From positions 1,426,001-1,490,000 of the forward strand of contig NZ_JAUTBF010000001.1 of the NCBI RefSeq assembly GCF_030818955.1: a stretch of DNA of 64,000 nt, read 5' to 3'. This DNA comes from Microbacterium trichothecenolyticum (GTDB taxonomy: Bacteria; Actinomycetota; Actinomycetes; Actinomycetales; Microbacteriaceae). Within the stretch, counting starts at the first letter, position 1. Each line of letters starts with the position of its first letter. This document shows, in pieces, positions 41,026-58,330 of this stretch. The position numbers and the translations under genes were made by a program. Under the pieces are notes generated by a model. The model worked only from the letters and a program-made list of their open reading frames with translations, had not been told where the DNA came from and searched no databases.

Positions 41026-42424
41026 TCAGTTCCCTTCCACGCGCAGCACGGAGACCACGCGCTCGACGACGCCGCTCGCGGCGAGACGCTCGACGGTCTC
41101 GCTCAGGTCCTGCTCGCGGGCTTTGTGTGTTCCGATGACCAGACGCGCGGATCCCGCGCCGGTCGCTGAGCCTTCTGCTTCGGTCGCTGAACCTTCCGCT
41201 TTGGTCGCTGAACCTTCCGCTTTGGTCGCTGAGCTCGTCGAAGCGGCGGATGCCTCGATGACCGTCTGCTCGACGGTGGCGATCGAGACGCGACCCTCGC
41301 TGAGGATGCCGGCGACCGTGGCGAGCACGCCCGGCTTGTCGTCGACCTCGAGCGTGATCTGGTAGCGCGTGATGACGTGTCCGATGGGCACGGCGGGGAG
41401 GTTCGCACGCGTCGACTCGCCCACGCCGACTCCCCCGGCGATGTGGCGCCGCGCGGCGGACACGACGTCGCCGAGCACCCGCCGACGCGGTCTGCACGCC
41501 GCCCGCACCCGCGCCGTAGAACATGAGGTCACCCGCAGCCTCGGCCTGCACGAAGACGGCGTTGTTGGCGCCGTGGACGCTGGCCAGCGGGTGCGAACGG
41601 TCGACGAGGGCGGGGTAGACGCGCACCGAGATGGACTCCGAGGCGTCCTCGGCCGTCAGGCGCTCGCACACGGCGAGCAGCTTGATGACGTATCCCGCGT
41701 GACGCGCCGACTCGATCATGGTGGCGTCGACGGAGGTGATGCCCTCGCGGTGGACGGCATCCAGGGGCACGGTGGTGTGGAAGGCGAGGCTGGCCAGGAT
41801 CGCGGCCTTCTGCGCGGCGTCGTAGCCCTCGACGTCGGCCGTCGGGTCGGCCTCGGCGTACCCGAGCTCCTGCGCCTGGGCGAGCACGTCGGCGAAGTCG
41901 GCGCCCTCGGTGTCCATGCGGTCGAGGATGTAGTTCGTCGTGCCGTTGACGATGCCCATGATGCGCACCACACGGTCGCCGGCGAGCGAGTCGCGCAGCG
42001 GCCGGATGATCGGGATGGCGCCGGCGGCGGCGGCCTCGTAGTACACCTCGGCGCCGACCTGATCGGCGGCCTCGAAGACCTCCGAGCCGTGGGTGGCCAG
42101 CAGCGCCTTGTTGGCGGTGACGACGTCGGCGCCCGAGGCGATCGCGTGCAGCACCTGCGTGCGGGCGGGCTCGATGCCGCCCATCAGCTCGATGACGATG
42201 TCGGAGCCGACGATGAGGGTCTCGGCATCCGTCGTGAAGAGTTCGCGCGGGAGGTCGGCGTCGCGCTTGGAGTCGACGTTGCGGACGGCGATGCCGGCGA
42301 GTTCGAGCTTGGCGCCCGCGCGGTCGGCGAGCTCGTCGCCGTGCTTGAGCAGCAGGTCGGCGACCTGCGAGCCGACGGCGCCGGCGCCGAGGAGCGCCAC
42401 GCGAAGCGTGCGGTAGTCGGTCAT
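41026..42424 (-). pseudogene. hom: homoserine dehydrogenase, frameshifted in this sequence
   Basis: The N-terminal part ([23 protein letters not shown](P)-binding; [30 protein letters not shown]) is intact to [14 protein letters not shown] at about residue 314. One extra base within CCC at 41478-41480 then shifts the frame. The correct frame resumes as [18 protein letters not shown] and continues through the ACT domain ([19 protein letters not shown]) to a stop at 41026. The ACT domain carries a 28-residue repeat insert. The enzyme is needed for Thr and Met synthesis, so the frameshift is more likely an assembly error than a real defect. Its start overlaps the lysA stop. Confidence 0.9.
41161..41244. 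repeat. four tandem 21-bp repeats inside hom
   Basis: The units start with GGTCGCTGA at 41161, 41182, 41203 and 41224. Units 2 and 3 are identical, and unit 1 differs at a few bases. The last unit reads GGTCGCTGAGCTCGTCGAAG, close to a motif that also appears at the prfA start. In hom the array encodes the seven-residue unit SATKAEG and variants, within the ACT domain. Confidence 0.9.
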
Positions 42425-44102: not shown

Positions 44103-47100
44103 TCACGCCGTGATGTAGTACTGGTTCCAGTTGCGCATGCCCTCACCGATCGCGGTGATCGCCCGGCCGGAGAGTCCTATAACGGAGACCGGGGTAGTAC
44201 GCGTGGTCGTCGTTCCGTCTCCAAGGCCGCCAGTGCTGTTGGCTCCCCATGCCTTGACCGTTCCATCGGTAAGCAGTGCGTATGCGGATGCCGCCCCACC
44301 GGAGACGACCGACACTCCCGACAAACCAGTCACCGAGACAGGCGTCCACCGGTCGGTCGTCGAACCATCGCCGAGTTGCCCGGAGTCGTTCTTGCCCCAC
44401 GCCACCACGGTGCCGTCCGAACGAAGGGCGTACGCGGAATCGTTCGAACCCGAGATCTGCTTCACGCTGGAAAGACCGGGCACAGCGATTGCCGTCCAGC
44501 TATCCGTCGTCGAGTTGTTCCCCAGCCGGCCATTGCCGTTGTATCCCCACGCCCGGACCGTACCGTCGGTCAGCAGAACATAAGCGCTCGCACCGCCACC
44601 CGACACCTGCGCGACGGTCACGTTATCGAGACCCTGCACTTTCACGGGCGTGTACTGGTCCGTCGCAGAGTTGTTGCCGACCGCTCCACCCCAGCTGTTC
44701 TCTCCCCACGCCCAGACGGTCCCGTCCGCCAACAGGGCGTATCCGTTCCACGAACCCGCGGCAATCTGCGCCACGTTCGTAAGGTTCCTCACCGCAACGG
44801 GAATAGCGCTGTCCGTGGTCGTCCCATCTCCGAGGTTCCCGTACCAGTTCGGACCCCACGCCTTCAGGGTTTTATCCGACATCAACGCGTAGAAGTGATT
44901 GCGCCCTGCCGCGAGCTGGGTCACACCCGACAAGCCCGGAACCTTGCCCCATGCATTCCGCGAGCTGACACCGGACCCGTCACCCAATTGGCCGTAACCG
45001 TTATCGCCCGCGGTCCAGACAGTCCCATCCTTCAGAAGTGCCGCCAGCGACGCGTCACCGCCGACGATTTGCTTGACGGGCGACGGGAACAACGTCAAAC
45101 CCTGCGTCGGAGTAGACGTCCAGTTGACTCCCGCAGCCCCGCCCTGCTGACGACCCGACGCCAGATAATTCGCACCCAACACCGAGAAGGCAGCCCTCGC
45201 AGAATTGGGGCCGCTCACGGCGCTTACGCTCAGCACAGTTCCTGGGCGCGTCCACGCTTCGGGCGTGACAGTTGTCTGAAAGACGCCGGAGGATGCTGTG
45301 GCCCCCGAGGATGCGCCAAGAACCGCGCTCCCCGTCGCAGACAGGGAAATTGAAGCACCGCCGACTCCGGTAGACCCCGCCATTACCTTGGCCTGTACCG
45401 AGCCGGCTTGTCCTGCGGAAACGAAAGCATCGACGTTGACTGCGAGCGTCGAGTCTCCTGTGATGTAGTACTGGTTCCAGTTGCGCATGCCCTCACCGAT
45501 CGCGGTGATCACGTGACCGGACAGTCCGATCACGGAAACCGGCGCGCTCCTGTTGGTGGAGGAGCCGTCGCCGAGAGCGCCGATGCTGTTGCTTCCCCAT
45601 GCCTTGACCGTGCCGTCGGCCAGAAGCGCGTATGCAGACGCGGCACCGCCGGAGATGACGGACACGTTGGCCAATCCGGTCACGGAAACGGGCGTCCAGC
45701 GATCAGTGGTCGACCCGTCTCCCACCTGCCCGGAGTCGTTCTTGCCCCACGCTTTCACCGTCCCGTCCGTCAGCAGCGCGTAGACGGCGTCGCTCGAGCC
45801 AGACACCTGCTTCACCCCTGACAGCCCGGGGACAGTGACGGCCGTCCACCGGTCGGTGGTCGTGTTGTCGCCGAGTCGACCGTTTCCGTTGTATCCCCAT
45901 GCCCGGACGCTTCCGTCCGACAGCAGGGCGTAGCCGCTCGCACCGCCACCGGTGACCTGCGTCACCGTCACGTTGTTCAGGCCCTGGACGCGGACTGCCG
46001 TGTACTGGTCCGTCGACGAGTTGTTCCCGACGGCACCGCCCCAACTGTTCTCCCCCCATCCCCAGACCGTTCCATCCGCCAGCAGCGCGTAACCGTTCCA
46101 CGACCCCGAAGCGATCTGCACGACATTCGACAGGTTCGCCACTGCCACCGGCGTCGGGCGATCCGTCGCTGTGCCGTCGCCGAGATTCCCGTACCAGTTC
46201 GGCCCCCACGCACGCAGAGTCTTGTCCGCCATCAACGCGAAGAAGTGGTTCCGACCGGCAGCAAGCTGCGTCACGCCCGACAACCCCGGAACTTTCCCCC
46301 AGGCGTTACGCGAGCTGACCCCCGAACCATCACCCAACTGGCCGTAGCCGTTGTCGCCCGCCGTCCACACGGTCCCGTCCTGCAAGAGAGCCGCCAACGA
46401 CGCATCACCACCGACAAGTTGCTTCACCGGCGACGGGAGCAACGTCAAGCCCTGCGTCGGCGTGTCGGTCCACTGGCTTCCAGTGGCAGGACCACCAACC
46501 TGACGCCCCGACGCCAAATAATTCGCACCCAACACCGAGAAGAAGTCCGCACTCGAGGCGGCATCCGTCGATCCACTCACTTTGAGCTGGGCACCCGGCC
46601 TCGTCCACGCATCGGGTGTGACAGTTGTCTGAAAAACACCTGACGAATCTGTCGCTCCCGAGGTCACACCGAGGACAGCGTTGCCTGTGGCTGTGAGGGA
46701 TACCGTCGCCCCGGCTACCCCGGTCGATCCGGTGGACACTTTGGCCTGTACCGTTCCGGCCGATCCGGCCGACACCTGCGTCTGGACCACGTCGACATTG
46801 AGCGTCAGGGCGCCCGCGATCGCGAAACGCGCGTCGACACTGCTACTCCCACCCAGCGATGTGACAGGGATACCCGCCGGAAGGTTCGCCTGCACGGGAA
46901 CGTTGGAGGGGTTTCCGGTGTACCCGTTGCCGATCTGGCCGTGGTCGTTCACACCCCACGTCCACACCGTGCCGTCGTTCTTCAGAGCGAAACCGGCGGC
47001 GACCTCCGCGACATTGGACAGTCCCTGAACGGCCACCGGCGTCGCCGAGGCGGCCGACGCCCCGTTTCCGAGCTCCCCGTTCTCGCCATCGCCCCACGCC

Positions 47101-48335
47101 ATCACCGTCTTGTCGGCCATCAACGCGTACCCGGTCTGACCGGCGGCCGCGATCTTCACCGCGTTCGAGATGTTGACCACGGGAGCAGCGGTGTAACGGT
47201 TGCCGGACTGGGTCGAACCGTCGCCCATCTGGCCCTTCCAGTTACCGCCCCACGCCATGATGGTGCCATCGGTCCGCAGGGCATACCCCGCCACCGACGT
47301 CGCCGCGATCTGCGTCACCCCCGACACCCCGACGACCTGCACCGCCGACGTCCTTTCGGTACTCGTCGTATCCCCCAACTGACCGAACCCGTTGCGACCC
47401 CACCCGATCACGGTGCCATCACTACGTAACGCCAGACCGAACCACGACCCGCCCGCAACCTTCACCACACCACTGGCGCCCTGGACAGTCACGACCGACG
47501 TGGAGAAACTCTGCGTGTTGTAGTCGTTGCCGTTCCCCAATGCCGAGAACGCGTTCACACCCCACGACCGCACCGTCCCGTCAGCCAGCGCGGCATACCC
47601 GGTCTGATACCCGGCCGCAATGTCGACCACATTCGACAGGTTCGGGATCCGCTGCGGCGGCCAATACCGGTCCGTCGTCGTCCCATCAGCGAGTTGGCCC
47701 TGACTGTTGCGCCCGACGCCCCAGACATCGCCGTTGTCGAGACGGAACAGCGTGAAGTTGTTCCCGCCCTGCGCCACCTGCACCACCGGCGACGGGAAGA
47801 CCTTCATCACCTGAGACGGAGTCGGCGTGTTGTCACCGGTGCCAAGACCGCTCATGCCGAACACTCCCGAACCCCAGGCGATCAGGTTCGCACCCAACAC
47901 GGCGAACGACTGCGTCGCATTCGCGTTCGCCGACACCGCCGAAACGCTCACCGTCGAGCCCGGAGTGGCCCACGGCTTGTTCAGGTTGAAATTCGCGGTG
48001 TACTGACCCGCACCGTTGGTCACGCCATCAGCCGCATCGAAGCTCGAGCCATCGGGACCGCTGAACGACACCGGCTGACCCGCCTGCGGCTGCCCCTGCG
48101 CGTCTTTCACGGTCACCGTCATCGGCACCGCGCCCGACGCCGGCACACCTGACGACGGACCGGCGATGGTCAGGTTCGACGCCTGCGACGCATTCGCGAA
48201 AGCCGGCGTCGCCGACGCGATCGACAGCGCAGGAACACTCCACGCCGCCGCAGCGACGACGGTGCGGCGTGAAAGAGGCGAGCCGAGGCCCTCCTCGACA
48301 CGCTCATCGGGGGGAAGGATACGAGCAGACGACAC
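44103..48335 (-). CDS. giant Tat-exported protein with Ig-like domains and RCC1 beta-propellers (RCC1 protein 1)
   Basis: The protein has 1410 residues from a GTG at 48335 with GAGGAG upstream. The twin-arginine signal peptide contains SPLSRRTVVAAAAW (Arg23-Arg24), with cleavage probably after ATPAFA (about 49). The mature protein repeats one plan three times: an Ig-like domain (such as GSAGTVQAKVSTGSTGVAGA), then an RCC1-type beta-propeller of six to seven blades, each with the signature ALLADGTVKAWG. Copies 2 and 3 are closely similar. There is no LPXTG, membrane anchor or catalytic motif, so it is probably secreted. RCC1 propellers bind proteins or glycans; the target here is unknown. It is the last gene of the four-gene island. 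Confidence 0.88.
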   Translation of the reverse strand: MSSARILPPDERVEEGLGSPLSRRTVVAAAAWSVPALSIASATPAFANASQASNLTIAGPSSGVPASGAVPMTVTVKDAQGQPQAGQPVSFSGPDGSSFDAADGVTNGAGQYTANFNLNKPWATPGSTVSVSAVSANANATQSFAVLGANLIAWGSGVFGMSGLGTGDNTPTPSQVMKVFPSPVVQVAQGGNNFTLFRLDNGDVWGVGRNSQGQLADGTTTDRYWPPQRIPNLSNVVDIAAGYQTGYAALADGTVRSWGVNAFSALGNGNDYNTQSFSTSVVTVQGASGVVKVAGGSWFGLALRSDGTVIGWGRNGFGQLGDTTSTERTSAVQVVGVSGVTQIAATSVAGYALRTDGTIMAWGGNWKGQMGDGSTQSGNRYTAAPVVNISNAVKIAAAGQTGYALMADKTVMAWGDGENGELGNGASAASATPVAVQGLSNVAEVAAGFALKNDGTVWTWGVNDHGQIGNGYTGNPSNVPVQANLPAGIPVTSLGGSSSVDARFAIAGALTLNVDVVQTQVSAGSAGTVQAKVSTGSTGVAGATVSLTATGNAVLGVTSGATDSSGVFQTTVTPDAWTRPGAQLKVSGSTDAASSADFFSVLGANYLASGRQVGGPATGSQWTDTPTQGLTLLPSPVKQLVGGDASLAALLQDGTVWTAGDNGYGQLGDGSGVSSRNAWGKVPGLSGVTQLAAGRNHFFALMADKTLRAWGPNWYGNLGDGTATDRPTPVAVANLSNVVQIASGSWNGYALLADGTVWGWGENSWGGAVGNNSSTDQYTAVRVQGLNNVTVTQVTGGGASGYALLSDGSVRAWGYNGNGRLGDNTTTDRWTAVTVPGLSGVKQVSGSSDAVYALLTDGTVKAWGKNDSGQVGDGSTTDRWTPVSVTGLANVSVISGGAASAYALLADGTVKAWGSNSIGALGDGSSTNRSAPVSVIGLSGHVITAIGEGMRNWNQYYITGDSTLAVNVDAFVSAGQAGSVQAKVMAGSTGVGGASISLSATGSAVLGASSGATASSGVFQTTVTPEAWTRPGTVLSVSAVSGPNSARAAFSVLGANYLASGRQQGGAAGVNWTSTPTQGLTLFPSPVKQIVGGDASLAALLKDGTVWTAGDNGYGQLGDGSGVSSRNAWGKVPGLSGVTQLAAGRNHFYALMSDKTLKAWGPNWYGNLGDGTTTDSAIPVAVRNLTNVAQIAAGSWNGYALLADGTVWAWGENSWGGAVGNNSATDQYTPVKVQGLDNVTVAQVSGGGASAYVLLTDGTVRAWGYNGNGRLGNNSTTDSWTAIAVPGLSSVKQISGSNDSAYALRSDGTVVAWGKNDSGQLGDGSTTDRWTPVSVTGLSGVSVVSGGAASAYALLTDGTVKAWGANSTGGLGDGTTTTRTTPVSVIGLSGRAITAIGEGMRNWNQYYITA
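44110..46810. repeat. two 1350-bp module copies in RCC1 gene 1
   Basis: Sequence from 44110 recurs from 45460 at an offset of 1350 bases, exactly 450 codons. The first 50 bases (encoding EGMRNWNQYYIT) are almost identical. Similarity elsewhere is high but interrupted by many synonymous changes. Each copy is one Ig-plus-propeller module. Confidence 0.8.
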
Positions 48336-48670
48336 GGGCAGACTCCTCAGGTCTCGAGCGAACAGGTGCGGCCAGCGATCGGCTCCGCATGCCCGAAAGT
48401 ACGACGGCTCGTGCACGCGCCGAACGAAGTCGCTCCGTGAGACTCGCCGGGTGATTCAGAGCGCCACGAGCGCGCGTGCGCCCAGAATCCGCTGAGTACG
48501 GCACATGTATAAATGCATGACCCGGGAGCGGCCAGACACCTGCGTCACCATCACCGAAGCGATCTCGCTCAAAGTTTCACCCGCCTCTGGCGAGGCGGTC
48601 ACCCACGCCGCGAGACCTCCAGACATCACCACGTCGGAGCGCTCCACACACCGCTCACCAGGCATCCCGA
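48336..48670. other. 335-bp intergenic region between RCC1 gene 1 and M60 gene 1
   Basis: There is no convincing gene here. A short hairpin, CCGCCTC (48581-48587) with GAGGCGG (48592-48598), followed leftwards by CTTT, may end the M60 transcript. The AT-rich spot around 48500-48520 (CATGTATAAATGCATG) is the only promoter-like sequence for the RCC1 gene. RCC1 gene 1 may therefore have its own promoter. Confidence 0.45.
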
Positions 48671-50968
48671 TCAGAACCGGAACCGACCTCCGCGCATCGT
48701 CAGCGTGCGCGGCGATGTCGACAGCGACCCGACCTTTTGGCTATCGGTGTAGGTCCGCACCCGCACCGGCTCGGCCGCCCGCACCCGAAGGCGGTAGCCG
48801 TCGCCGCAGGCGACACCATTCAACGCGCGGACCACCTTGTCATGCGTCTCGTCGCCGTTCACGCTCACCGTGGCGACCGTCGCGCCGCGAGCGTTGAGCA
48901 GCGTGAGCTCGTAGTAGAGCTTGCCCTGGAAGTAGTAGTCGTGCGGGGCGAAGCCCGTCGAGGTGGCGACGAGATGAGTACCGTCTCGGCTGATTCCCAC
49001 CCAGCCCGCGCGGATGTCGTAGATTCCCACGAACTCCAAAGCCGAGTTGACGGTCACGTCGACGGCCTGGATGAGGAGCTCGGGAGTGCGGTCATCGGCC
49101 TCGAGGACGGCGAAAAGGTGCCCCTGGCCGGGACCGACGTTGATCGCCGCCGACCCGCGCGACACCAATCGACTCGGCGTTCCCGCCAGACTCGTCAGCC
49201 CCGTCACCTCACCGCCCGTCGCCTGATTGTCACCCAGGTCCAACGTCATCCCCTCGCCCGAAAGGTTTCCGAGCGGCACGTTGTATCCGACCCGTCGTTC
49301 CACGAACGCGTCGCGCGAGTCGATCGCCGCCGCGATCTGGTGCTCCAAGGAAGGATAGGCAGCCGTCGATGAGATGACGGATGCCGACAGCGATAGGCCC
49401 CACTCGGCGAAGAACGGAGCCAGATCACGATCTGCCACCTCGGATGCGACCTGCGCGAACATGTCGATCTTCTCCTGGTCTGCGTAGGGCATCGTCATCC
49501 CCTGGCCTCGTCGCACCCGGTACCTCTGATCGACCGCCGGATAGAAGCCCTCGCCGAATGACTGGCGCAACTGATCGAAGAAGAAGAGCGGATAAAACGG
49601 GTTCTCGTTGATCAGATCCCAGAACCGGCGATCTGTCACGGGTTGATCGAAGTACCGCGCGATGCGATCTTTGGCCTCGGGCCACTCGTCGAGGCGATGC
49701 GCGCCCGTGAGCCGCTGCTGCAGGGCGAGCGATGAGATGTTGACGGTCACCTCGCCGAGCCCACCCCAGGTGTACGACGGTGTCTGGAAGGTGTGGCCCA
49801 CTTCATGCCACGTCCCCCAGTTGTCGGGGGTGGTCAGAAGCGTCTCGCTCGCGCCTGTGTTGATCTGGAAACACAGCCACTGATTCGTCGCGAACGCCCA
49901 GCCCGCGCCCGAGTCGGCGCCCGAGAAGTAGACACGGCCCGGGTGCTTGCGCGCGACACCCACCGCCGCGTAGGTGAGCCCGTACACATCGCAGGTGTAC
50001 TCCAGCACGCGGTCGAGGCGCATGACCACGTCGGCCGGGTCCCACGAAACTCCGCGGGAGCGCAGATCTTCGACGAGGCGTCTCTGAACATCGACGAAGA
50101 CACGTTCCCCGACCAGCGACACCACCGGCGCCGCGGAAAAGTCCGCCAGCTGCGCCGCGAACTCATCCGCTCTCGTGCGATTCTTCACCCACACCGGGTG
50201 CGCACGCCCTCCCGAGATGGTCGCGGTGGCGACTTTCTCGGTCGAGGAGTTCGACACGAAGACGATGCCGTCACGCGGTGCCGTGATCTGTTGCCGGCCG
50301 GCAGTCAGGCTGATGCTGGTCACATCGACGTTCTGCCCGCCGTTGAGATCCTGCCAGGGGCCCCGCGCCCCGAACCACAGCAGCACAGACTCCACCGGGC
50401 CTGCCGTCACGTCGACGTCGAGCACGTCGTTGGCGCGCACCCACCGGCCGGTCGGCTGCAAGTCGCTGTGCGTGAACCCTCGGTTCTCGATGTCGCGCAC
50501 GGCATCCTGGTTGCCATGCGGCAGAACCATCACCGTCGTGGAGGCACCCGTCGCGTCGTGCATGATCACCGACACCTCGCGCACCTCTAGGGACGCCGTC
50601 GCCGTCGCACCCGATGATGACACCGTCACGGTGGTCGTCGCGGCAGCTGCACCCGTCAGCACACGCAGCGATGTCGAGAAGACACCGGCGGCGTCCGTCA
50701 CTCCCGACGGCTGCTCTATCCGCACCAGCCCCGCGTCGGCCACCCCCACCCAGACGGGTTCACCCGCCAGGGGGCGCCCCGCCTCATCGGCGCGCGTGAC
50801 ACGAACCGTCGTCATCTCGTCGGGGTAGAGACGTGAACGATCCAGTGTGAGAGTCGCCGCCCCTCCGGTGCTGGTTGCGTATGCAGGCACCGCGGTGGTC
50901 AGCACGAGCGCTGGTGTGGACCAGACGCCGGCAGTGACGATCGTGCGACGCGACAGGGGGCTAGGCAT
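48671..50968 (-). CDS. secreted M60-family (enhancin-like) metallopeptidase 1
   Basis: The protein has 765 residues from the ATG at 50968, with GGAG six bases upstream. The Tat-type signal has PLSRRTIVTAG (Arg6-Arg7), with cleavage near VPAYA (about 31). An Ig-like domain (about 35-130) precedes the M60 catalytic region. The zinc site is HEVGH at 388-392, and Glu406 (GLGEVTVN) fits the gluzincin-type extended M60 signature HExxH(8-28)E. M60 peptidases of other bacteria cut O-glycosylated mucin-like proteins. A C-terminal beta domain (about 600-765) follows. The paralogue next to it has the same residue numbering at the active site. Confidence 0.9.
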   Translation of the reverse strand: MPSPLSRRTIVTAGVWSTPALVLTTAVPAYATSTGGAATLTLDRSRLYPDEMTTVRVTRADEAGRPLAGEPVWVGVADAGLVRIEQPSGVTDAAGVFSTSLRVLTGAAAATTTVTVSSSGATATASLEVREVSVIMHDATGASTTVMVLPHGNQDAVRDIENRGFTHSDLQPTGRWVRANDVLDVDVTAGPVESVLLWFGARGPWQDLNGGQNVDVTSISLTAGRQQITAPRDGIVFVSNSSTEKVATATISGGRAHPVWVKNRTRADEFAAQLADFSAAPVVSLVGERVFVDVQRRLVEDLRSRGVSWDPADVVMRLDRVLEYTCDVYGLTYAAVGVARKHPGRVYFSGADSGAGWAFATNQWLCFQINTGASETLLTTPDNWGTWHEVGHTFQTPSYTWGGLGEVTVNISSLALQQRLTGAHRLDEWPEAKDRIARYFDQPVTDRRFWDLINENPFYPLFFFDQLRQSFGEGFYPAVDQRYRVRRGQGMTMPYADQEKIDMFAQVASEVADRDLAPFFAEWGLSLSASVISSTAAYPSLEHQIAAAIDSRDAFVERRVGYNVPLGNLSGEGMTLDLGDNQATGGEVTGLTSLAGTPSRLVSRGSAAINVGPGQGHLFAVLEADDRTPELLIQAVDVTVNSALEFVGIYDIRAGWVGISRDGTHLVATSTGFAPHDYYFQGKLYYELTLLNARGATVATVSVNGDETHDKVVRALNGVACGDGYRLRVRAAEPVRVRTYTDSQKVGSLSTSPRTLTMRGGRFRF

Positions 50969-51108
50969 GGAGGTCTCCGTTCCACGCCCCTGGGCCCACC
51001 TCGGGCACAGAAGCGTCCGACCCTGACGGTAAGACATCCCACGCAGACCACGGCCGGCATTCTGATCGCGCGAGGCGGGGTGAACACCTGGCACCGGCGC
51101 CGGCGCGA

Positions 51109-53403
51109 TCACACGACGAAACATCCGCCGACGATCTGCAGAGCTGTGGTCGTGAGAGTGAGCGTCGTGGTCCAGGCGCTGTCTCGGTAGACGCGCACCC
51201 GCCCCGGCTCGGCCGCGGTGACTCGCACCACATCGCCCTCGCCGCAGGGTATCCCGTGCAGTGCGCGTACGACGGGCTCGGCGGTGTCTTCTCCGCGAAC
51301 GGTTGCCGAGGCCCGAACGATCCCGTCGGCGTTGCTGAGCTCGACGGTGTAGTACTCGACTCCCGCGAAGTAGATGGGGTGCGCCTGATTGCCGAGCGAC
51401 GTCGCCACCAGATGCGTCCCCTCAGCACTGATCGCGATCGACCCGATCATGACGTCGTAGAAGCCGACGAACTCCAGCGCCGAGACCGCTGTCACCGCCA
51501 CGACGCGCTGCAGAACCTCCTGCGTGCCTTCGGGCGATTGCAGCACCGCGTACACCCGTCCCGCACCGGGTCCGATCTGCGCAGCGACCACCCCACGGGC
51601 GACGACCGTGCTGGGCGCGCCGGAGATGCTGAAGGTGTCGTCCACCGAGACGGATGCCGTGGCATCGCCGAGATACACCGAGGTCACTCCCGACGTCAGC
51701 GACCCCGTCGGAGGGTTGTACGGAACATCCCGTTCGATCGGAGCGTCGGTCGAGAGGACGTACGTCCAGATGTCGTGCGTGAGCGCCGGAAGCCGAGCGA
51801 TCTCGGCGAGGATCTCCTCCGAGACGGTGAGCCCCCACGCCTGAAAGAACGGTCCAAGGTCGCGGTCGGAGACGGTCGAGGCCGCCGTCGCGAAAGCGTC
51901 GATCTTCTGTCGATCGGACTGCGCGCGAGCGATGCCCTTCGCTCGACGTACGCGGTAGTACTGGCTGAGCGCCGGGTAGAAGTCGTCGCCGAACGACCGA
52001 CGCAGTTGATCGAAGAGAAAGAGTGGGAAGAACGGGCTCTCCGCCGTCAGCGCCCCGAAGTCTCGATCCGCGACCGGTTGGGAGAAGTAGCGCGCAATCC
52101 GATCCTGGATGTCGGGTGACTTGTCGAGCATGTTCTCACCGGTCATCCGCTTCTGTAGAGCCAGGGACGAGATGTTCACCGTCACCTCGCCGAGGCCCGA
52201 CCAGGTGTAGTCGGGCGTCTGGTACGTGTGGCCCATCTCATGCCACAGCACCCAAAGATCGGAGCCCGTCACCAGCGCTTTGCTCGCACCGGAGCTGACG
52301 TGCAGCGACAGCCACTGCGTCGTCGCGAACGCATAGGCTCCGCCCGAGTCGGGACCCGCGATGTAGATGCGGCCGGGGTGCTTGCGCGCGACGCCGACCG
52401 CGTCGTAACTGAGCCCGTATACCCCGTCGGTGAGCAGGCGGATCTCGTCGAGACGCGAGATCACGGCGGCGGGATCGTAGACGGATGCCACGTCGGGGGC
52501 GTCGATCACGCGTCGCTGGACATCGGCGAAGACTCGATCCGCGACATGGGTCACGATGGGAGCGTCGCTCCAGTCGTTCATCTGCCCATCGAACTCGGTG
52601 CGGTCCGTGAAACCGTCGATCCAGACGGGATTCGGACTTCCGCCGCTGATCGTGGCGTCGACGGCAGACCATTCGCTGTAGTTGACGATGAAGACCAGAC
52701 CCGACCGGTCCGCCGTGACCGTGTTCGTCCCCCCGTGCAGCACCGTCCGCGACAGCTCGACGCTTCCGTCGCTGTCGAAGACCGCCATGGGTCCGCGCGA
52801 TCCGATGGCCAGTTCGAGCCACCACGACGGAGAGGCGTCGACGTCGACCGTCAGCACGTCTCCTGCACGCACCCATCGCCCGGTCGGCTGAGGGTCGCTG
52901 TGCGGCATCCCACGATTCTCCGGAGCGACGATGGCATCCTGACTTCCGTGCGGCAGGGCGACGACGACGGTGGAGCTCCCGTCGACGCTATGCCGGATCA
53001 CAGCTCGGCGCACCACCGAGAATGAGGCCATCCCGCCGTTGTCGCCGACACTCGCCGCAACGAGCCCCGTGCCAGGAGTGCAGGTCGTGCGCACGCGCAT
53101 GACCGTCGAGAAGGAGCCGTCCGCATCGGTGGTTCCCACCGCCTCATCGAAGAAGGCGGGGATGCCGCTGACGCTGAGCGCGACGGGAGCACCGGGCGCC
53201 GGTCGCCCGTCTTGCGCACGGACATCGACCTGGATGCCGGACACCTCCCCCGCCAACAGGCTGGACCTCCAGACGGTGACGGTCACCGTCTGGGAACCAC
53301 TGACCGCGTAAGCCGGGCTGGACGCGAGGAGGACCACGACAGGTGCCGACCATGCGGCGCCGGCGAGAACGGCGCGGCGGCCGAGAGACGGAGCGTCAGT
53401 CAT
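51109..53403 (-). CDS. secreted M60-family (enhancin-like) metallopeptidase 2
   Basis: The protein has 764 residues from the ATG at 53403, with GGAGG nine bases upstream. The Tat-type signal is SLGRRAVLAGAAW (Arg9-Arg10), with cleavage near SPAYA. The domain order matches peptidase 1: Ig-like, M60 core with HEMGH at 388-392 and Glu406, then a C-terminal beta domain ending VGGCFVV. The two peptidases are clearly paralogous but divergent over most of their length, so the duplication is not recent. The 140-base gap between them has no terminator, which supports one transcript. Confidence 0.9.
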   Translation of the reverse strand: MTDAPSLGRRAVLAGAAWSAPVVVLLASSPAYAVSGSQTVTVTVWRSSLLAGEVSGIQVDVRAQDGRPAPGAPVALSVSGIPAFFDEAVGTTDADGSFSTVMRVRTTCTPGTGLVAASVGDNGGMASFSVVRRAVIRHSVDGSSTVVVALPHGSQDAIVAPENRGMPHSDPQPTGRWVRAGDVLTVDVDASPSWWLELAIGSRGPMAVFDSDGSVELSRTVLHGGTNTVTADRSGLVFIVNYSEWSAVDATISGGSPNPVWIDGFTDRTEFDGQMNDWSDAPIVTHVADRVFADVQRRVIDAPDVASVYDPAAVISRLDEIRLLTDGVYGLSYDAVGVARKHPGRIYIAGPDSGGAYAFATTQWLSLHVSSGASKALVTGSDLWVLWHEMGHTYQTPDYTWSGLGEVTVNISSLALQKRMTGENMLDKSPDIQDRIARYFSQPVADRDFGALTAESPFFPLFLFDQLRRSFGDDFYPALSQYYRVRRAKGIARAQSDRQKIDAFATAASTVSDRDLGPFFQAWGLTVSEEILAEIARLPALTHDIWTYVLSTDAPIERDVPYNPPTGSLTSGVTSVYLGDATASVSVDDTFSISGAPSTVVARGVVAAQIGPGAGRVYAVLQSPEGTQEVLQRVVAVTAVSALEFVGFYDVMIGSIAISAEGTHLVATSLGNQAHPIYFAGVEYYTVELSNADGIVRASATVRGEDTAEPVVRALHGIPCGEGDVVRVTAAEPGRVRVYRDSAWTTTLTLTTTALQIVGGCFVV

Positions 53404-53437
53404 CGAAGTACCTCCCAACATCGGATTCGGGCGAAGA

Positions 53438-53474
53438 CCGTGTCGGCGGACGCGGGTGCCGCCCGCCGACACGG
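53438..53474 (-). terminator. hairpin after RCC1 gene 2
   Basis: CCGTGTCGGCGG (53438-53449) pairs perfectly with CCGCCGACACGG (53463-53474) ten bases after the RCC1 gene 2 stop and 35 bases before the M60 gene 2 start. It may end or attenuate the transcript between the two genes. Confidence 0.7.
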
Positions 53475-53499
53475 CTCGCTTGGTCACGGCGCGGTGTAG

Positions 53500-56112
53500 A
53501 GGTACATGCGGTTGGTGGAGGGTGAGTTGGTCATGAACCCCGTGATGGGCAGCCCGGACAGGCCGCTGACGGCGACCGGCGTGGTGGCGTTGGTGGTGTT
53601 ACCCGTACCGAGCTGACCGGTGGAGTTGTCACCCCAGGCGATGACGGAGCCGTCCGACTTGATCGCGTAGGCCGAGTTGCCCGACGCCGTCACCCGCGCG
53701 ACGCCCGAGGTCAGCCCAGATACCGCCGTCGCGCTCGAGCGCGATGTCGTCGTGCCATCGCCGACGAACCCGGAGGCATTGTCGCCCCACGCGTACACCG
53801 CCCCGTCAGAGGTCCGCACCACGCCGCCGGCGAAGCTGCCCGCGACCTGCACCACCGTCTTGCCCGACAGCCCCTGCACCTGCACCGGCGTCGACGACGC
53901 ATACACGGCCGCACTCGCCGACCACTGCGGGGGAACCGGTGTCGTGCCCTTGCCCAACGCGCCCGCGTAATCACTGCCCCACGACCACACCGTGCCATCG
54001 GACTTCACCGCATACCCGCCCTGCGCGAAACCAGCGATCTGCGTCACATTCGACAACCCCGACACCTGCACCGGCGACGCCGACTGCGACACACTCGACC
54101 CGTCACCCAACGCCGCACCGAACGTATTCCGCCCGATCGCGCGCACCGTGCCATCCGTCAGCAAGAAGAAGCACTGCTGCGTCCCCGAACTGACCTGCGC
54201 GACATTCGACAACCCCGCCACCTGCACCGGCGTCGACGCCGACCCGCCGGAGACATTCGCCCCCAACTGCCCGAACGAGTTATCGCCCCACGCCATCACC
54301 GTCTTGTCCGCCAGCAACGCGTACACCGACTCGTTGCCCGCTGAAATCTGCTGCACACCGGAAACGCCTGTGACGCGAGCCCAGGTCGTTCGCGAGTTGC
54401 CGCCGGTGCCCAGCTGGCCGAAACCGTTGCCGCCCACAGACCAGACGGTCCCGTCATCCAGCAACGCGATCGTCGCGTGATTCGCGCCCCCGCCCGTTCC
54501 CGCACCGACGGAGACGACCTGCTTCACCGGTGACGGAAAGGCCCGAAGAAGCTGCGACGGCGTCGTGCGCGCGACACCGCTACCCGCGGCATCGCCACCC
54601 GCCGCTCCCCCATCGCCCAATTCCGCCCACTGGTTCAGACCGAAACCCAGAGCATTCGCACCGAGGCTGACGAAAGTGTCGCTGCCCGCGCTCGTTCCGC
54701 TGGCGGCGGTGACCTTGGTGACCAGTCCCGGCGTCGTCCACCGGTTCAGCTGAACGGTGGTCTGGTACGTGCCGCTCGCACCCGTCGAGCCCGAACTCGC
54801 GCCCAGCTGCGCGTTGTTCGACGCGGACAATGTCAACGCGGCGCCCGTCACGGGGACCGAACCGGCCGTGACCTTCGCGACCACCGCCCCGGCCGTGCCC
54901 GCCGGAACCTGTGCATCGACATCGACCGTCACCGTCGCCGTGCCGACATAGAGGTACATGCGGTTGGTGGAGGGTGAGTTGGTCATGAACCCCGTGATGG
55001 GCAGCCCGGACAGGCCGCTGACGTTCACCGGAGTGGTGGCGTTGGTGGTGTTACCCGTACCGAGCTGACCGGTGGAGTTGTCACCCCAGGCGATGACGGA
55101 GCCGTCCGACTTGATCGCGTAGGCCGAGTTGCCCGACGCCGTCACCCGCGCGACGCCCGAGGTCAGCCCAGATACCGCCGTCGCGCTCGAGCGCGATGTC
55201 GTCGTGCCATCGCCGACGAACCCGGAGGTATTGTCGCCCCACGCGTACACCGCCCCGTCAGAGGTCCGCACCACGCCGCCGGCGAAGCTGCCCGCGACCT
55301 GCACCACCGTCTTGCCCGACAGCCCCTGCACCTGCACCGGCGTCGACGACGCATACACGGCCGCACTCGCCGACCACTGCGGGGGAACCGGTGTCGTGCC
55401 CTTGCCCAACGCGCCCGCGTAATCACTGCCCCACGACCACACCGTGCCATCGGACTTCACCGCATACCCGCCCTGCGCGAAACCGGCGATCTGCGTCACA
55501 TTCGACAACCCCGACACCTGCACCGGCGACGCCGACTGCGACACACTCGACCCGTCACCCAACGCCGCACCGAACGTATTCCGCCCGATCGCGCGCACCG
55601 TGCCATCCGTCAGCAAGAAGAAGCACTGCTGCGTCCCCGAACTGACCTGCGCGACATTCGACAACCCCGCCACCTGCACCGGCGTCGACGCCGACCCGCC
55701 GGAGACATTCGCCCCCAACTGCCCGAACGAGTTATCGCCCCACGCCATCACCGTCTTATCCGCCAGCAACGCGTACACCGACTCGTTGCCCGCTGAAATC
55801 TGCTGCACACCAGAGAGCCCAGCGATCTGCATCCACTGCGACCGCGAGTTGCCGCCCGTGCCCAGCTGGCCGAAACCGTTGCCGCCCACAGACCAGACGG
55901 TCCCGTCATCCAGCAACGCGATCGTCGCGTGATTCGCGCCCCCGCCCGTTCCCGCACCGACGGAGACGACCTGCTTCACCGGCGACGGAAACACCCGCAA
56001 CAACTGCGCGGGCGTCGTGCGCGCGACACCGCTACCCGCGGCATCCCCACCCGCCTGACCACCGTCGCCCAGCTCAGCCCACTGATTCAGACCGAAACCC
56101 AGAGCATTCGCA
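53500..56112. repeat. near-identical 1452-bp tandem module copies in RCC1 gene 2
   Basis: DNA from about 53500-54355 recurs at 54952-55807 with only a few mismatches (offset 1452 bases, 484 codons). The match resumes after a short variable patch (54361-54400 against 55813-55852) and continues to about 54660/56112. The variable patch encodes blade residues VTGVSG-type versus IAGLSG-type. Confidence 0.92.
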
Positions 56113-57972
56113 CCGAGGATGGGGGCCGACGTCGTCGCCGTACCGAATGGGCAGCTTGCGGTGACCGTCAGTGACGAACCGGGCATGGCCCAGGTGTTCA
56201 GGCTCGCGATGGCTGTCACGAATCCCGACGAGTTCGTCGTTCCCGACGAGGTCGACAGTGGTGCATTGTCGGATGCCGACAGCTGAACCGCGACGCCGGA
56301 GACACCCGTGGATCCTGTGGTCACTCGCGCACCGACCGAGGCGTTCTCGCCCGCGCGCACCGGATTCGGCGACAAGGCTGTGATCTGCGGATTCGCCGTG
56401 ACGACGAACATGCGCGAGGAATTCGGCGCCAGTGTCATGAGCCCCGAGACCGACAGTCCGCTCAAGCCGCTGACGGAGGACGGGCGCGGACCGGTTCGTG
56501 GTCGTCGTGTCGCCGAGCTCACCTTTGGTGTTCTGACCCCACGCCTTCACCGATCCGTCCGAAACGACCGCGTATGCCGACGAACCGCTCGCTGCCACCT
56601 GAGTGGCGTCGGTCACGCCCGTGACAGCGACAGGAACGGACCGGTTCACCGTGGTCCCGTCTCCCAACTGACCGACGGTGTTCTTGCCCCATGCGGCAAT
56701 GGCTCCACTGGCACGGAGAGCGTAGGCGGAGGCGAGGTTGGCCGCCAGGGCCGCGGCATCCAGCAACGAGCCGCTCACCGTCACCGGAACAGCACTGCTG
56801 GTGGTCGTGCCATTGCCGAGCTGGCCCGACGAGTTGTTGCCCCATGCCCGCACGGAGCCGTCGCCCATGAGAGCGAGGCCGAATGACGAACCGCCCGCAA
56901 TCTGCGTCACATTCGCCAGGTTCGACACCACCACGGGGACGGTCGAGACGTCACTCGTCGTGTTGCCGTTGCCCAACGCACCGCGACCGTCAGGCGCGTT
57001 CTCAGGACCCCACGCATTGCGACCGAGCGCTCGGACCGTGCGGTCGGAGAGAAGGAAGTACACCTGCTGCGAAGCGGCGGCGATCTGGGTCACGTTCGAC
57101 AGGCCCGGGATGACCGCCGGTGAGGTCACGGAGTTCTGCGTCCCCCCGGTGCCGAGCTGACCGAACCAGTTGTCACCCCACGCGGCGACCGTGTTGTCGG
57201 AGAGCAAGGCATAGACCGACTCGGCACCAGCGGACAACTGCTGCACACCGGACAGGCCGGAAATCTGAATCCACGTGGTGCTCGGCGAGTAGGAGCCGTT
57301 GCCGAGTTGCCCGAACCCGTTACCGCCGATAGACCAGACGGAGCCGTCTAAGAGCAAGGCGAAGGTCGATTGATTGGATCCCTGGCCCGTCGCCGTCCCA
57401 CAGGAGACGAGCTGCTTGATCGGAGACGGAAACACCGTCGTCAGCTGCCCCGCCGACGAACGGACCGCGCCCGATCCCGCACTGTCGCCACCGGCTTGGC
57501 CGCCGTCGCCCATCTCGGACCACGCGTTGTATCCCCATCCCAGGGCGTTGGCACCGAGGATGGGGAACGACTGAGCTGTCGCGACTCCACCGACGACGGC
57601 AGAGATGATGACGGTTGCACCGCCCTTGGCCCACCGGGAGCCCAGCGTGAAGGTCGTGGTGTATGTACCAGTTCCGTCGGTGACGCCGTCGGCAGCGGCG
57701 AAAGTGCCGGGAGAAGGAGCGGTGAGCGACACCGACTGACCCGACAGCGGCTGCCCCTGCGCACTCTGAGCGACGACGGTGACCGGAACGGAACCCGATG
57801 CGGGAACGGCGTTCGAGGGCGTCGCGATCGTGACGACCGGCGCGTTCGAAGCGGACGCCATGGCCGGCGACGCGGAGAGGAGCGAGACCGCCGGAATCGC
57901 CCAGGCGGCACCCACGACGACCGACCGGCGGGGAATGCCGCCTCCCGCCGTCAGACGCGAGTCAAGGCTTAC

Positions 57973-57993
57973 GGGGGGGGGGGGGGGGGGGGG
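57973..57993. repeat. 21-base poly-G/poly-C tract, probable phase-variation switch
   Basis: Twenty-one consecutive G residues (C on the coding strand) begin 17 bases after the first base of the ATG of RCC1 gene 2. Run lengths of 19 or 22 would place the ATG in frame with the Tat signal peptide and the rest of the protein; 21, as written, ends in TAA right after the tract. Confidence 0.9.
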
Positions 57994-58010: not shown

Positions 58011-58330
58011 GAGAATCTCCTCTGTATGTGCCACACCGGTCGCCTGATGCGCCGGTCGCCCGATGCGTTTGGCGCGCCCCACGGTAAGGGTCGACGCCGA
58101 GCGGATCGCGGTGAGGAGCGCGTATCCGTCGTGGGTGAAGTCGACACGATTGCCGCGCAGATCATTCCCCCCGAAGACGGCGAGACGCGGGCGCCTGCCC
58201 GCGAAACCGACCAGCACCGTGCCCAGGATTCACCCGCGTCGGTGTCTCGCTCACCCGGCCATGTGGCCGACAAGCCCACACACCACCGGCTACACCCGCG
58301 AACGAACGCGGGGGAACGCTGCGATGTCCG
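58011..58330. other. 320-bp region upstream of RCC1 gene 2
   Basis: No convincing gene is present. Short open frames here read into the homopolymer tract but lack conserved features. The stretch should hold the promoter of the island operon, in leftward direction; AGAGGAGA just before the ATG is the ribosome-binding site. It also contains the 3' side of the LmeA-like gene transcript, which reads in the same direction, and I see no terminator between them. Confidence 0.5.

Follow-up and report, generated by a model that had tools for sequence, protein, structure and literature searches.

A 21-base poly-C tract between start codon and signal peptide of an RCC1-repeat protein gene in Microbacterium trichothecenolyticum is probably a translational contingency locus

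In Microbacterium trichothecenolyticum a run of 21 C stands between the start codon of a gene for an RCC1-repeat protein and the region encoding its signal peptide. We consider it probable that this run is a translational contingency locus, by which the gene would be phase variable. The proposal is supported by the finding that related exported-protein genes across the genus have this N-terminal layout too, with runs of differing length, and it is better supported by these relatives than by the window itself. (The window is the whole stretch of DNA that was analysed, 64,000 nucleotides corresponding to positions 1426001-1490000 of genome G000, which consists of one contig of 3,735,270 bases.)

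An initial reading of the window from its letters (the sequence-only reading) had pointed to a homopolymer of 21 bases between a ribosome-binding site with ATG and a signal peptide. The run is there to the base, as C21 on the minus strand, and it has these neighbors (Table 1). On the C strand the order is AGGAG, six bases, ATG, 14 bases, C21, GTAAGCCTTGAC... and the signal peptide (...IPRRSVVVGAAWAIPAVSLLSASPAMASA), whose twin-arginine motif and hydrophobic core (PRRSVVVGAAWAIPAV) were read by eye. In the window (69% G+C, no N) the C/G runs besides the tract are one of 7 and 17 of 6 bases; no other C/G run of at least 8 bases was found there. The whole genome has only six C/G runs of at least 10 bases (21, 21, 21, 20, 23 and 12 bases, the second being the window tract). 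A chance run is ruled out by these numbers, the window being without runs of 8-20 bases.

Table 1. Features of the tract gene, poly-G runs in regulator genes and run lengths in the nine genes readable through the run (positions are those of the window unless a locus is named)
Feature	Position	Strand	Remark
Poly-C tract (C21 on the coding strand; 21 G on the plus strand)	57973..57993	-	candidate slipped-strand switch
Ribosome-binding site AGGAG	58017..58021	-	read from the sequence and by pattern match
ATG start codon	58008..58010	-	14 bases between codon end and tract
Twin-arginine-type signal peptide region (VSLDSRLTAGGGIPRRSVVVGAAWAIPAVSLLSASPAMASA)	57850..57972	-	signal type by eye; not joined to the ATG at length 21
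N-terminal part: sub-threshold Big_1 Ig-like match and RCC1 repeats	56077..57972	-	Pfam; out of frame past the break near 56480
C-terminal part, other frame, RCC1 repeats	53484..56522	-	Pfam; contains two 300-nt copies
Poly-G runs of 14, 22, 14 and 19 in AraC-type regulator genes	L152, 2499 and 5315; L174, 2499; L127, 2502
Window gene, C21			out of frame
Own LamG gene, C20			out of frame
SLBN-146, two genes, C19 and C21			both out of frame
FXH-28, C16			out of frame
RURRCA19A, three genes, C26, C14 and C9			C26 in frame; C14 and C9 out of frame
Syntenic RCC1 gene of G006, G9			out of frame

It was computed that at a tract length of 21 the ATG opens a frame of 13 codons followed by a stop, and that the ATG joins the frame of the signal peptide only at lengths that are a multiple of three plus one, e.g., 19 or 22. 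In the signal-peptide frame there is no ATG, GTG or TTG upstream of the GTG at 57915, which lies inside the hydrophobic core and is the first possible start; an alternative start making the C21 allele ON is thereby ruled out. P0007, the publicly recorded protein for this genome, is annotated from about 57513 on, past the signal peptide. Two marks of a contingency locus are found here, namely a long simple repeat in the 5' region of the coding sequence (C21 between ATG and signal peptide) and a frame that is shifted by the change of a single unit without an alternative start. Of the window gene one allele is known; the syntenic gene in a related genome (G006) has G9.

The mechanism that we propose begins with replication slippage in C21, which would alter the length by single bases. 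One length class in three would link the ribosome-binding site and ATG to the signal-peptide frame; in the other classes translation would end after about 12-16 codons, leaving an intact signal peptide without a start codon. Since no start codon would remain for the intact signal peptide, the RCC1 protein would not be exported in these OFF classes. We infer, further, that length changes would be frequent enough in a population to be useful, that the ON state would yield protein and that selection would maintain the switch.

The repair background of the organism bears on the first of these steps. A search for NucS gave a match in the genome (control: 7 of 14), and a search for MutS domain V (PF00488; control: 11 of 14 genomes) gave none. 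According to excerpts of two papers, NucS of M. smegmatis does not repair indels of 1-2 bases (PMC11551767), and mycobacterial runs of 7-9 bases undergo frameshifts at 1e-5 to 1e-2 per CFU (PMC10159617). Because NucS was found without MutS and mycobacterial NucS leaves small indels, long C runs are expected to be unstable here, and by analogy the 21-base run would be unstable in its Microbacterium host.

The RCC1 gene lies in two frames (56074-57915 and 53484-56522), separated by a single-base break near 56480; RCC1 repeats (PF00415 and PF25390) are above the Pfam cut-off in both parts, and the sub-threshold Big_1 Ig-like domain follows the signal peptide. At the C-terminus (...MYLYTAP) no LPXTG-type motif or anchor was seen by eye, and there was no wall-binding Pfam match. 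We therefore prefer "exported" to "surface" protein, the term of the sequence-only reading, which is not established. Should the second frame break be real, the gene would be a pseudogene. Upstream of it are an LmeA-like gene and argS (the latter named by eye).

The claim that lengths of 19 or 22 put the gene ON and a length of 21 puts it OFF holds as frame arithmetic, but the OFF state itself is read from just one assembly, in which there are further one-base breaks; the OFF state is therefore insecure, and so is the length of 21 to one base. In the window, hom has a single-base frame break at 41480, making a fused frame of 910 codons. Of the 12 genomes searched, 11 have the gene, this one among them; in the ten relatives the open frame spans 430-512 codons, one of these frames covering only part of the query, and none of the ten shows the break. 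The break was located at a short G run by alignment to G006, in which the N-terminal part of hom is 96% identical to that in the window; argS aligned to the same genome shows no frame break. Inspection of ORF lists by eye suggested further one-base breaks, in an amidase-like ORF of the window as well as in genes that flank two other runs of the genome. The single-base breaks in hom and in the RCC1 gene are likely assembly errors.

An assembly so prone to indels raises the question whether the long run, or its length, is itself a sequencing error. The breaks just described speak for this, but assemblies of other species have runs of comparable length at the corresponding positions, proline runs occur in protein records of further assemblies, and an artefact would not pick the same codon. 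We regard an artefact as very improbable, although the exact figure of 21 may still be wrong.

The layout of a start codon, a few codons, C9-C26 and a signal peptide was also found in FXH-28, RURRCA19A, SLBN-146 and at a second locus of the own genome (relatives were assigned to Microbacterium by the names returned from the searches). Nine genes can be read through the run; with the frames computed together, one is in frame and eight are out of frame, which is not remarkable against a chance of one in three. Three further genes are cut off by a contig end within the run, with 9 C remaining in T32, 28 C in G054 and 11 G in G227.

The FXH-28-type protein is encoded behind a flank, ...AACTCCGCTATTA-Cn, that is common to FXH-28 (n = 16) and RURRCA19A (n = 14), the two proteins being 58% identical. 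In CSI-V, whose protein is 92% identical to that of FXH-28, n is 7 and the gene is in frame. Homologues of this type thus retain the N-terminus (...AIT) and the signal peptide while the run is 7, 14 or 16. Two protein records, ...AITPPPVDLNRR (P0015) and ...AITPPPPPADLNRR (P0011), have 3 and 5 prolines, which implies C11 and C17, both of the in-frame class; these are lengths deduced from proteins, and proline may have been encoded by other codons. In P0021 (SLBN-111) there are nine prolines. P0009 matches FXH-28 at 280 of 291 aligned residues and has six prolines, but its upstream sequence differs and it carries little weight.

In G006 an RCC1 gene lies between argS and lysA, in the same order as in the window. 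Its ribosome-binding site and ATG are followed by G9 and then by a signal peptide in another frame, after which a frame of 968 codons is open. With G9 between ribosome-binding site-ATG and signal peptide, G006 is a second species in which this position is taken by a homopolymer, of another kind and likewise out of frame. On phase-variable export, as claimed in the sequence-only reading, the result is divided: the tract gates export by frame and the layout recurs in the genus with differing lengths, as a contingency locus would lead one to expect, but the OFF state is insecure.

How widespread the layout is was estimated by several searches. Among homologues of the window protein, 26 of the 29 loci examined are without a run of more than 7 at the start; the run-bearing ones are L076 (C16), L061 (G11, at a contig end) and L058 (G9, the G006 gene). 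This scarcity counts against the contingency reading. A pattern scan that included the ribosome-binding site matched 14 of 366 genomes, a number that mixes true cases, low-complexity stretches and contig ends; at the places found (L188-L200) a signal peptide lies behind the run only in G000, G112 and G340, and in G052 (L190) the contig ends at the run. L199 was added by this pattern search, and a later protein search added two more genes with the layout in the strain of L199 plus two contig-end cases. In a collection of 84,980 species, C9 or longer precedes this type of signal peptide in 14 stretches, a lower bound, as the scan covered one signal-peptide type and one distance range and perhaps omitted records very near the own genome. 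Three are from Microbacterium with clear signal peptides and one is from an Actinomyces MAG; the remaining ten were set aside as chance-like after their frames had been read. In the Actinomyces MAG (L215) a possible GTG start is separated by C9 from a plausible signal peptide of the same type.

Long C/G runs are common beyond this layout. A run of at least 14 bases is present in 90 of 198 genomes searched. In the own genome two of the six runs stand between start codon and signal peptide, the window tract and the run at 2082894 in the gene of a secreted LamG-domain protein; the other four are between genes or at gene ends. From fetched loci around runs, 104 isolated interior runs of at least 11 bases were kept, a sample of chosen regions (listed isolated interior runs, own-genome loci and search loci, L076 having entered via a protein search) rather than of every run in the genomes. 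The sample had been limited beforehand to runs standing alone and away from contig ends; in reading the layout, runs beside gaps were skipped. Start codon, run and signal peptide follow each other in 5 of the 104 (window, L023, L076, L132 and L133), and 8 lie inside a called ORF, the LamG run L023 being counted in both classes. The majority appear intergenic and frequently follow directly on the 3' end of a gene whose coding strand carries the C. These tallies are approximate, the ORF caller being crude (codon-position G+C only) and having missed the window gene itself. Because the N-terminal cases were recognized through their signal peptide, their link to export is partly one of selection. 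C/G runs also arise in places where nothing is gated, and the idea that every long run is a switch is ruled out by the many isolated runs that look intergenic. Several draft contigs of Microbacterium begin or end within poly-G/C, and such runs are probably undercounted in drafts.

These observations have to be weighed in favor of neutral slippage, according to which NucS-type repair without MutS would let runs grow anywhere, here in a decaying, dispensable gene in which OFF is simply loss of function. Besides the intergenic majority among the 104 runs and the frequency of runs of at least 14 bases, the eight of nine readable N-terminal loci that are out of frame, the second frame break within the window gene and the further stops in the C9 copy of RURRCA19A fit this explanation. 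It does not account well for the fact that close homologues from different species carry the run at one and the same codon, ahead of long intact frames, for in-frame alleles (C7, C26 and the implied C11 and C17), or for the syntenic gene of G006, where a different homopolymer is in place and is followed by an open frame. We judge neutral slippage unlikely to be the explanation. A gate could also be leaky, slippage of RNA polymerase or ribosome mixing the frames so that some protein would appear whatever the genomic length and the run would set a level rather than ON or OFF; the idea comes from general knowledge of homopolymer slippage, and we give it a very small probability. A translational contingency locus remains the reading that we prefer.

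Runs were also seen in regulators. Poly-G runs were found in the linker of four AraC-type regulator genes (two in G328, one each in G103 and G197; Table 1), all transcribed away from a gene for an exported protein of the same family. Of the four, only the G103 gene is in frame. In that gene and in two pieces of one G328 gene, HTH_18 is above and Cupin_6 below the Pfam cut-off; the other two genes were assigned to the AraC type by likeness. We tentatively suggest, without leaning towards it, that Microbacterium might have a two-level contingency system of exported-protein starts and AraC-regulator linkers, in several species, made workable by the lack of MutS.

Neisseria and Campylobacter turn genes ON and OFF by frame via replication slippage in poly-G/C runs of coding sequences. 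Many of these loci have been tested experimentally, and hosts and proteins are others, whereas the Microbacterium locus is known from sequence alone. For Actinobacteria such loci had been called rare in the sequence-only reading, which is too strong in view of variable or frameshift-prone homopolymer tracts described in excerpts of papers on Cutibacterium acnes (PMC4746626, PMC3224659), Gardnerella (PMC11287997) and mycobacteria (PMC10159617, PMC11551767). By structure the Microbacterium tract appears to resemble these known systems. One close likeness is to C. acnes, also an Actinobacterium, where PPA2127/PA-25957 and other adhesins combine a 5' poly-C, an exported protein and a frame shift by length; in one adhesin gene poly-C stands in the 5' end and a change in length breaks the frame (PMC3224659). 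The same species is reported, in the portion of PMC4746626 consulted, to have 54 polymorphic tracts, 96% of them G/C and 72% between genes, so that there, too, most C/G tracts of the genome are intergenic; their lengths track clades, which suggests slow drift over active switching and counts against the contingency reading. As far as these excerpts go, C. acnes differs in that its length differences come from sequencing strains within a single species and were set against whether the protein appears in the secretome, and in that its proteins are PT-repeat adhesins as against RCC1-repeat and other exported proteins.

Gardnerella, according to the passages available of PMC11287997, is likewise an Actinobacterium with long tracts near putative surface-protein genes, one of which varied in vitro by Sanger sequencing, but most of its G/C tracts are upstream of genes, its proteins are different and its niche is human-associated. 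In mycobacterial glpK a C-run frameshift silences the gene in an organism with NucS, but the runs are shorter (7-10 C) and the gene is metabolic, not one of export (cited in an excerpt of PMC10159617). No report of a phase-variable homopolymer locus in Microbacterium was found in the literature searched, as judged on titles and the openings of abstracts.

Microbacterium is a large genus of mostly environmental Actinobacteria. If the contingency reading is true, clones of these bacteria would combine cells that have particular exported proteins with cells that lack them, for which phages, grazers and the choice of surfaces are obvious candidate pressures. Automated annotation could then lose the signal peptides of such genes, and exported proteins would perhaps be undercounted; the records P0007, P0016 and P0045 start within the signal or beyond it. 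As NucS was found in this organism and MutS was not, the locus is also a clean place to study the stability of long C runs.

Some minor observations were made along the way. In 46 of 60 adjacencies within 100 nt, C is on the coding strand of the gene next to the run, 34 of them just 3' of the gene (the count derives from crude ORF calls, and one run may count twice); a link of this bias to Rho-type termination or to mutation bias is possible. In the window, hom has an in-gene tandem repeat insert at 41174-41241, which encodes SATKAEG-like repeats and shows gaps adding up to 45 nt when aligned to G006. The window RCC1 gene contains two 300-nt repeats (53497-53796 and 54949-55248), 98% identical and 1,452 nt apart, a possible substrate for recombination. 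A second RCC1 gene, at 44103-48416, is without a run, and between the two RCC1 genes, at 48671-53487, two peptidase M60 paralogues stand in tandem; of their two mucin-binding-like modules one is below the Pfam cut-off.
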